Below, piece by piece: positions 19,138 to 41,324 of a stretch of DNA of 64,000 nt (its first letter is position 1; each line of letters opens with the position of its first letter). This DNA comes from Rubeoparvulum massiliense (lineage in GTDB: Bacteria > Bacillota > Bacilli > Rubeoparvulales > Rubeoparvulaceae). The translations under genes were made by a program, and so were the position numbers. Below the pieces are notes generated by a model that did no database searches, was not told the DNA's origin, and worked only from the letters and a program-made list of their open reading frames with translations. The stretch lies in NCBI RefSeq assembly GCF_001049895.1, contig NZ_CVPE01000003.1:1-64000 (forward strand). Direction: 5' to 3'.

Positions 19138-19743
19138 TTACTTTGCAGCGGCATAACGGCGAGCAACTTCATCCCAATTGACAACATTCCAGTAAGCACT
19201 GATATATTCTGGGCGACGATTTTGGAACTTCAAATAGTATGCATGCTCCCAAACGTCTAGACCAAGAATTGGTGTTTTACCTTCGGTCAGAGGGCTATCC
19301 TGATTGGCTGTGCTCATCACTTCTAGCTTACCATTAGCAACAACGAGCCAAGCCCAACCTGAACCAAAGCGGCTTGCAGCTGCATTGGCAAATAACTCTT
19401 GAAACTTTGCAAAGCTCCCAAACTCCTTCTCAATAGCTGCCTTCAAATCTCCTATTGGTTCTCCACCACCAGTAGGGCTTAGTACAGTCCAGAATAAGGA
19501 GTGGTTGGCATGACCACCACCATTATTACGAACAGCTGTACGAATGGCTTCAGGTACTTGATTAAGATTGGCCACTAATTCTTCGATAGATTGATTGCCA
19601 AGATCCGTGCCTTCAATCGCCTTATTTAAGTTATTCACATATGTAGCGTGGTGCTTGTCATGGTGAATCTCCATTGTCTTAGCGTCTATATGTGGCTCTA
19701 ATGCATCAAAAGCATATGGTAAATCAGGTAATTGAAATGTCAT
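19138..19743 (-). CDS. sodA: Superoxide dismutase (Mn type)
   Basis: A 201-residue Fe/Mn superoxide dismutase. Metal ligands are present: His in EIHHDKHH, His in HANHSLFW, and Asp and His in DVWEHAYY. The second-shell Tyr (KHHATYV) and the Gln in STANQDSPL, the latter in the position typical of Mn enzymes, are also there, as is the dimer-bridging Glu in WEHAYY. AAGGAGG precedes the ATG. Strong terminator downstream. It is divergent from a second, unusual SOD-like gene. Confidence 0.95.
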
Positions 19744-19967
19744 GATAACATGACCTCCTTCATTGAATTTATTATTCTATTACTAGTATGCCTATGTTAT
19801 TATCATTTGTCAATATATTAGTTTAAAAAGTATGTTTAACTTGCTTAAAGTGAGCTTACACATATCGACTTGGTTTCTTGAACCCACATTATTTTTCTCG
19901 GTGGCATGGTTACTGTACCCAGTTTCATTCTTACTACATAGGGTACATTAAGAAAGGAGTGGATCGT

Positions 19968-20993
19968 ATGACCACGATGAAGCAGTCTCAGATCCTGGCC
20001 ATCTTTAGGGAATGGCAATATCAGGTCAATCAGGTGCTCAATCAAATTGAGCAAATCCCTGACTCCCGTTCATTTGCTCATGATATCAAGCAATTAAGAG
20101 ATGACCTCGCACAGATCGGCAGCGATTTCTCCTCTGCTCCTTCCATCAGCTTAATCAACAAAGGGAATCAGGAAGTTGGCAGTTTTTTTTCGACCACCTA
20201 CCATGGGCAGCAGATTGAAACGGTAAAAGGCTACTGGCAGCAGTTAATTCTCTACTTCCAAGAGTGGGAGGACTACCTATACAAGCTACGAAATGGTGAG
20301 CAACGAGCTGCATCCATCCGAAAGATCCCCAGCGAGCGGCAGATTATCTCATGGAGCTACGCTAAAGAGCAAACAACGCCACTGGGTAAGCATCAGCTCC
20401 CTGAGCTTCCTTATTCATATGGCGCACTGGCTCCCTTTTTGGAGGAGCAGCTACTACGACAGCACCACCAATTTCATGGCAAGCTAGTCGCTGCCCTTAA
20501 TCAAGGAGAAAAGGAATTACAAGCTATCCTGGAAGACTCCGAGCGTAGTCTTATCCCTGCAACCATCTCGACCATTGCCCACTTTGGCTCCGAACACTTC
20601 CTTCATTCACTCTTTTGGGAGATGTTAACCCAACGAGGAAGAGGTGTCCCTGTTGGTGAATTCGCTGACCAATTAGATGATGATTGGGGAGGTTTTGCAG
20701 AATTTCAGCATGTCTTTACCACCACTGCCCAGAGCTTAAAGGGCGATGGATGGGCTATTCTAGGCTGGGCTCCACGGATTCATCGTCTCATTATCTATAC
20801 TGCAAAAAAGGATGGCTATTCCATGCAGGATACAATTCCCCTTCTCGCCCTCGACCTCTGGAAGCATGCCTATTATTCCCAATATGGAGAAGACAAACAC
20901 CGCTATATTGAAGCTTGGTGGAACTTTGTTGATTGGCATGGGGTAAACGAGCGTTTTAAAATGGCCCGAATTGTTAAATGGTCTACCGGATGA
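19968..20993 (+). CDS. SOD-like protein with N-terminal extension and altered active site
   Basis: A 341-residue protein. The first ~150 residues are helical and charged with no clear family; the rest is a Fe/Mn SOD domain starting at LPELPYSYGALAPFL, an architecture like B. subtilis SodF. The four metal ligands are kept (RQHHQFH, FLHSLFW, LDLWKHAYY). Against the neighbouring SodA, Tyr34 is replaced (Val by ungapped alignment), the active-site Gln of STANQ becomes Lys (YTAKK), and the dimer-bridging Glu of WEHAYY is Lys. It may bind metal but dismutase activity is doubtful. Start is ATG 19968, with AAAGGAG before it. Confidence 0.82.
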   Translation: MTTMKQSQILAIFREWQYQVNQVLNQIEQIPDSRSFAHDIKQLRDDLAQIGSDFSSAPSISLINKGNQEVGSFFSTTYHGQQIETVKGYWQQLILYFQEWEDYLYKLRNGEQRAASIRKIPSERQIISWSYAKEQTTPLGKHQLPELPYSYGALAPFLEEQLLRQHHQFHGKLVAALNQGEKELQAILEDSERSLIPATISTIAHFGSEHFLHSLFWEMLTQRGRGVPVGEFADQLDDDWGGFAEFQHVFTTTAQSLKGDGWAILGWAPRIHRLIIYTAKKDGYSMQDTIPLLALDLWKHAYYSQYGEDKHRYIEAWWNFVDWHGVNERFKMARIVKWSTG

Positions 20994-21071: not shown

Positions 21072-21121
21072 TTCTCTTCGCAGAGAATGTGAAAAATATC
21101 TCTCCGTAGAGAATGTGAAAA
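21072..21121 (+). repeat. Tandem hairpin repeat in the selenoprotein leader
   Basis: Two copies, 26 nt apart, each made of a short hairpin followed by AGAGAATGTGAAAA. Hairpin 1 is TTCTCT/AGAGAA with loop TCGC (21072-21087); hairpin 2 is TCTCT/AGAGA with loop CCGT (21099-21112). They end about 20 nt before the start codon. Function unknown. Confidence 0.8.
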
Positions 21122-21141
21122 TGAATAAGGGAGTGACTGTG

Positions 21142-21426
21142 ATGCAAGTCTCTGATTCCGCAAAGGAAAAAATTGTTGAGCTAATGCAGAAGAAAAATGT
21201 AAACACCTTACGTATCTATTTTAGTGGGTATGGCTGAGGTGGCCCCCAAATTGGGATGGCTCTGGAAGAGCCAGAAGCAAATGATAAAGTAGAAACCATC
21301 AACGGCATTCAGATTGCAATTGATTCTGTCATCTATGACCAAGTTGCCGATGCTACATTAGATTATCGCAATTCATTCCTTGGCGGCGGCTTTGTCTTCG
21401 ATGGTGGACAGACCTCTTCTTGCTAA
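21142..21426 (+). CDS. HesB/IscA-like selenoprotein (in-frame UGA read as Sec)
   Basis: Reading through the TGA at 21235-21237 gives a 94-residue protein with selenocysteine (U) at residue 32: ...IYFSGYG-U-GGPQIGMALEEP... ending GGGFVFDGGQTSSC. HesB/IscA-fold proteins carry a conserved Cys at this place; HesB-like proteins are a known bacterial selenoprotein family. The frame is the same on both sides and the protein-like sequence continues for 62 codons to TAA and a strong terminator. A 6-bp hairpin with loop UGGAA follows the UGA at the right distance for a bacterial SECIS. Start is ATG 21142 with AAGGGAG upstream; ATG 21121 is an alternative. Related proteins take part in Fe-S or redox chemistry; the exact role is unknown. 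Confidence 0.85.
21235..21273 (+). promoter_or_regulatory. Sec UGA codon and SECIS-like hairpin
   Basis: UGA at 21235-21237. TGGCTC (21257-21262) pairs with GAGCCA (21268-21273) around the loop TGGAA. The first loop G is 27 nt from the UGA and a G lies within the first two loop bases, both matching the bacterial SECIS pattern. The whole element lies within the coding sequence, as is usual in bacteria. Confidence 0.75.
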
Positions 21427-21443: not shown

Positions 21444-21491
21444 AAAGAGAAGGTGATCTTCAGACACAAGAAGATCACCTTCTCTTTTTAA
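21444..21491 (+). terminator. Terminator after the selenoprotein gene
   Basis: AAAGAGAAGGTGATCTT (21444-21460) pairs perfectly over 17 bp with 21471-21487, followed by TTAAATT. Confidence 0.9.
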
Positions 21492-40977: not shown

Positions 40978-41147
40978 CTTCTTATCCAGAGAGGTGGAGG
41001 GATCGGCCCTGTGAAACCTCGGCAACAGACTCATCTTTTTGAGAACTGTGCCAATTCCCACAAGCTACGGCTTGGAAGATAAGAAGAGCGGAATGCCTTT
41101 TTCCACGGCGTCAACCTCTTCTTATTTGATAAGAAGAGGTTTTTTAT
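40978..41147 (+). ncRNA. SAM-I (S-box) riboswitch, first copy
   Basis: The aptamer runs 40978-41086, closed by P1 CTTCTTATC/GATAAGAAG, with the S-box core CCAGAGAGGTGGAGGGA, GAAACCTCGGCAAC and GTGCCAATTCC. A terminator follows (AACCTCTTCTTA 41113-41124 with TAAGAAGAGGTT 41130-41141, then TTTTATT). The P1 3' strand can pair with the terminator 5' arm, giving the usual switch: SAM bound means P1 and terminator form and transcription stops. Confidence 0.95.
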
Positions 41148-41169
41148 TATAACTTCATATGCTTCATTA

Positions 41170-41324
41170 CTTATCCAGAGAGGTGGAGGGACTGGCCCTA
41201 TGAAGCCTCGGCAGCGGACTCATCTTTTTGAGAACTGTGCCAATTCCAGCAAGCAGTATGCTTGGGAGATAAGAGAGGAAGATGATTCACTCCTTTTCTT
41301 GTTTCTCAAGAAAAGGTTTTTTTA
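41170..41324 (+). ncRNA. SAM-I (S-box) riboswitch, second copy
   Basis: A second full aptamer, 41170-41273, nearly identical in its core to the first (CCAGAGAGGTGGAGGGA, GAAGCCTCGGCAGC, GTGCCAATTCC), closed by CTTATC/GATAAG. Its own terminator is CCTTTTCTTG (41292-41301) with CAAGAAAAGG (41307-41316) and seven T. It ends 37 nt before metN. Two complete units in series make a stricter, steeper response to SAM. Confidence 0.95.

Follow-up and report, generated by a model that had tools for sequence, protein, structure and literature searches.

The in-frame UGA and the surrounding window

In the 64,000-nucleotide stretch of Rubeoparvulum massiliense DNA that we analyzed (contig NZ_CVPE01000003.1, positions 1 to 64,000; hereinafter the window), a HesB/IscA-like gene is interrupted by an in-frame TGA, which raises the question of whether this triplet ends translation or specifies selenocysteine (Sec), and what role a Sec-containing protein of this type might play. 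From the Sec machinery of the host and from comparison with homologous sequences we infer that Sec is inserted in vivo and that the gene is almost certainly a genuine selenoprotein gene of the HesB/IscA family. The relevant features are:

21129..21133, plus strand: Shine-Dalgarno-like GGGAG, 8 nt before the ATG (sequence)
21142..21426, plus strand: predicted HesB/IscA-like selenoprotein gene, 94 aa, UGA as Sec32 (frame, PF01521, TIGR01911, homologs)
21235..21237, plus strand: in-frame UGA, predicted Sec codon within GYGUGGP, a UxGP motif (position shared by 30 homologous loci)
21257..21273, plus strand: predicted bacterial SECIS hairpin UGGCUCUGGAAGAGCCA, loop G at 21264 (folding, homolog conservation, bSECIS constraints)
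21421..21423, plus strand: codon of the C-terminal Cys94 (translation, homolog comparison)
21444..21487, plus strand: intrinsic terminator hairpin, common to the convergent minus-strand gene (folding)

The original prediction described an otherwise intact HesB/IscA-like gene split by the TGA at 21235-21237, with U where the family has its conserved Cys. Both points hold: the 94-codon frame contains this one internal TGA, and alignment with Cys-containing homologs places the U at the conserved Cys, within a UxGP motif that here reads U-G-G-P. Read in this way, the frame gives 94 residues (MQVSDSAKEK...GYGUGGPQIGMALEEPEAND...GGQTSSC) before a TAA at 21424-21426. It is plausible, as originally claimed, that standard gene callers would overlook such a gene. 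Cys94 is the only Cys besides Sec32 and is kept in most Sec forms; more broadly, most Sec homologs end in a Cys or have one close to the C-terminus, those lacking it being L053, L058, L060, L063 and L065. The nearest relative, L021, has the same TGA and is 53% identical to the window protein (36 of the 62 residues after the TGA and 14 of the 31 before it), and the nucleotide differences between the two genes are commonest at third codon positions. This identity, together with the third-position bias, indicates that the part downstream of the TGA is under coding constraint.

The gene sits between one coding for a superoxide dismutase (SOD)-like domain and a convergent gene for an FmdB-type zinc ribbon. 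A 17-bp terminator had been placed right after the TAA; the hairpin itself stands (17-18 bp, z -10.8, between the two convergent genes), but 17 nt separate it from the TAA. The upstream gene (19878-20993) codes for an N-terminal extension fused to an Fe/Mn superoxide dismutase-like domain and adjoins a normal sodA-like gene on the opposite strand (19138-19743). Just upstream of the selenoprotein gene, at 21074-21121, a 22-bp repeat, CTCTNCGNAGAGAATGTGAAAA, occurs twice in tandem, and each copy contains a small CTCT/AGAG hairpin; a search of the whole genome allowing up to 2 mismatches recovered no further copies. Elsewhere in the window (40979-41275) two tandem SAM riboswitches occur on the same strand, 82 nt apart.

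Family assignment

For profile searches against Pfam and NCBIfam the U of the window protein was replaced by C. The Pfam Fe-S_biosyn/HesB domain (PF01521) was matched at 28.0 bits (cut-off 26.3), and the best-scoring NCBIfam family was TIGR01911 (HesB_rel_seleno) with 64.2 bits. Two results count against the selenoprotein reading here, namely that the latter score falls short of the curated TIGR01911 cut-off of 66.35 and that the protein lies well below the cut-off of NF038090.

As the original prediction had stated, HesB-like selenoproteins do exist in bacteria: by 2006 they had been described in Deltaproteobacteria, Clostridia and others (Zhang et al. 2006, PMC1794560), and the UxGP motif is documented for those of TIGR01911 (PMC13188914). 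The window gene shares with them the HesB/IscA fold, the UxGP motif, a bacterial SECIS just downstream, Cys homologs and a host with the Sec trait. It differs in its TIGR01911 score, which points to a divergent branch, and in the lineage of its host, for which the closest relatives among the compared genomes belong only to the same class. Mutagenesis and 75Se labelling have likewise revealed an archaeal HesB-like selenoprotein in Methanococcus (PMC11097638). This protein, Methanococcus maripaludis MMJJ_08070, identified with 75Se labelling, similarly contains Sec, is distant IscA kin and has an unclear function, but it comes from an archaeon, and archaea have another SECIS type. Since HesB-like selenoproteins are known from both bacteria and archaea, the window gene is, judged by its sequence, a new and somewhat divergent member of this group.

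Distribution across genomes

A scan of genome contigs with the single window protein recovered only two Cys relatives, and a search across genomes was far more productive. Using 101 genomes of the class, including that of the host (G000), we recovered 30 HesB-like loci with one internal TGA in 19 of them, with the TGA always at the conserved Cys position. A tRNA-Sec was found in 36 of the 101 genomes, namely in 18 of the 19 with TGA-containing HesB-like genes as against 18 of the other 82 (Fisher p = 4e-9, a value that ignores relatedness among the genomes). The exception, G081, which has TGA-containing HesB-like genes and no tRNA-Sec above threshold, counts against the selenoprotein reading; its assembly is fragmented (420 contigs), and the other three members of its genus have tRNA-Sec.

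The same searches recovered several related groups. The host genome codes for a second, Cys-type HesB-like paralog (L067, G000:C3:406283-406507; ESCCGPQFG...CTKGCCGE). Within one genus (g13) a further group of Sec HesB-like paralogs (L059, L061, L062 and L064) displays PGUGGP or PGUGGF, ends in GP.SSC and has neighbors common to its members in that genus. Three other loci, L054 (G012:C32:33374-33721), L055 (G066:C108:10812-11156) and L056 (G051:C1:1428556-1428903), code for carriers of the ErpA/SufA type in which a UGA replaces the codon of the first cluster-ligand Cys (GGUSGFSYG). They are otherwise canonical carriers with an intact CGCGSSF, have DRA where Cys forms have DEP, and bear, at the same distance, a strong SECIS-like hairpin (UGGCAC-UGGAUC-GUGCCA). 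In G012 and G066 all HesB/IscA matches of the genome search carry a TGA, whereas a Cys copy is present as well in G051, and in G081 the ErpA/SufA-type carrier exists in Cys form only. Sec at the cluster site of an Fe-S carrier would be surprising, and a brief literature search found no paper describing such a carrier.

A conserved SECIS hairpin

Downstream of the UGA, folding reproduces the hairpin originally proposed, with a stem of 6 bp (U21257-A21273 to C21262-G21268), the loop UGGAA, a start 19 nt after the UGA and the loop G (G21264) 27 nt from it; the folding program also closes a U-A pair, giving 7 bp and the loop GGA. The earlier placement within the bacterial SECIS range agrees with the published bSECIS constraints (PMC13188914), which call for a loop of 3-9 nt, a stem of 4-16 bp, a G in the first two loop positions, a distance of 16-37 nt from the UGA and an MFE <= -7.5: the window hairpin has 6-7 bp, a loop of UGGAA or GGA, a distance of about 27 nt and, in isolation, -9.0 kcal/mol. 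The stability of the 54-nt stretch on its own is not unusual for its composition (z -1.3), and the case for a SECIS thus rests on conservation across homologs.

All 30 Sec forms have GG at the same loop position and at a constant distance from the UGA, as against 5 of 20 Cys forms, and in the Sec genes it mostly lies within a CUCUGGANGAG core. The six-pair stem, scored over the 26 Sec sequences that are ungapped, pairs in 92% of cells and outscores every slid version (25-52%); compensatory changes are seen at two stem pairs (G-C/G-U/A-U and G-C/U-A). Most Cys homologs lack the SECIS hairpin. Randomization of synonymous codons seldom matches the observed hairpin energy (p 0.048 for the window gene; among the subset of Sec relatives run with a scorable hairpin, p 0.002-0.06 in eight of nine and 0.29 in the ninth), and the hairpin is partly favored by the protein motif ALDEP/ALEEP itself. 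Three Sec relatives (L021, L023 and L029) have weaker or interrupted hairpins, which counts against the selenoprotein reading.

Decoding of the UGA

The absence of selB, selC or selD would have spoken against Sec, and these three genes, together with selA, are present in the host genome (2.84 Mb, 97% complete). The tRNA-Sec (62.6 bits, anticodon TCA) lies about 4 kb from selB (371 bits), with ABC transporter genes between them, and selA (579 bits) adjoins selD (390 bits). Within the latter an in-frame TGA occurs in the motif SGUGCK, and each of two FdhA genes contains a single in-frame TGA, in one case with the motif UHSSTVAG. The machinery genes together with these TGAs furnish several independent marks of Sec decoding in this host.

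By default, an in-frame TGA is taken as a premature stop, and the gene might accordingly be taken for a pseudogene in which a nonsense mutation has disrupted a Cys-type HesB gene. Were this so, relatives might show a stop with no conservation beyond it; instead, the UGA, the downstream protein and the SECIS are conserved, the TGA recurring in the 30 loci across families of the class. With the coding constraint and the full Sec machinery added, we reject the pseudogene as extremely improbable. Readthrough by a UGA suppressor inserting some other residue is just as improbable: we found no point in its support, the SECIS and the full Sec trait are present, and the homologs carry Cys at the UGA position, as expected for Sec. 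For Sec insertion, we propose that when the ribosome reaches the UGA at 21235, SelB with Sec-tRNA-Sec would bind the apical-loop GG of the hairpin at 21257-21273 and deliver Sec at residue 32, which corresponds to the first cluster-ligand Cys of the A-type carriers. The resulting short protein would contain Sec32 and, instead of a CxC motif, only Cys94 at its C-terminus.

Predicted structure and possible function

The function of the protein is much less certain than its reading as a selenoprotein. Its AlphaFold model adopts the IscA fold (mean pLDDT 91), and the best PDB matches of the model are IscA, with SufA also among the matches. The predicted fold and the location of the first ligand residue (here Sec instead of Cys), both common to IscA, SufA and ErpA, might suggest that it carries Fe-S clusters as they do, with Se replacing one S ligand. 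However, it is shorter than these A-type carriers and, in place of three cluster-ligand cysteines including a C-terminal CxC, offers just two candidate Cys/Sec ligands, Sec32 and the terminal Cys94; the CGC(G) motif is absent, the C-terminus being TSSC, and a separate carrier with CGCG is encoded in the same genome (G000:C5:50507). We therefore regard Fe-S carriage as rather unlikely.

No gene neighborhood is conserved across the HesB-like family, where only small groups are seen with arsA or with shared lineage genes, and the FmdB neighbor of the window gene recurs only at L062. Several homologs are encoded behind the arsenic-resistance genes arsC, arsD or arsA, including the Sec forms L024, L051 and, more weakly, L032, and the Cys forms L003, L004, L028, L035 and L039. 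This suggests soft-metal or metalloid handling. A HesB-like gene is also orf7 of the ars1 operon of Bacillus CDB3 (PMC4562236), which we liken to the window homologs by name and ars context, not by sequence. Handling of arsenic as a partner of ArsA/ArsD-type systems is about as doubtful for the window protein as Fe-S carriage, given that its gene stands alone, outside any ars operon and flanked by the SOD-like and FmdB-type genes. With only Sec32 and Cys94 as candidate ligands, and in view of the ars context of the homologs, we prefer, with low confidence, a role in soft-metal, metalloid or redox chemistry to one in Fe-S transfer; the two residues, probably together in a dimer, would form the site. 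More speculatively still, the short Sec-HesB proteins might as a group be selenol-based soft-metal or metalloid chaperones, either allied with ArsA/ArsD or freestanding as here, and not Fe-S carriers.

The window thus contributes a clean predicted selenoprotein gene, backed by SECIS comparisons across homologs, to a family of unclear biochemical role, and the Sec and Cys homologs encoded behind arsCDA offer a testable lead on its function.
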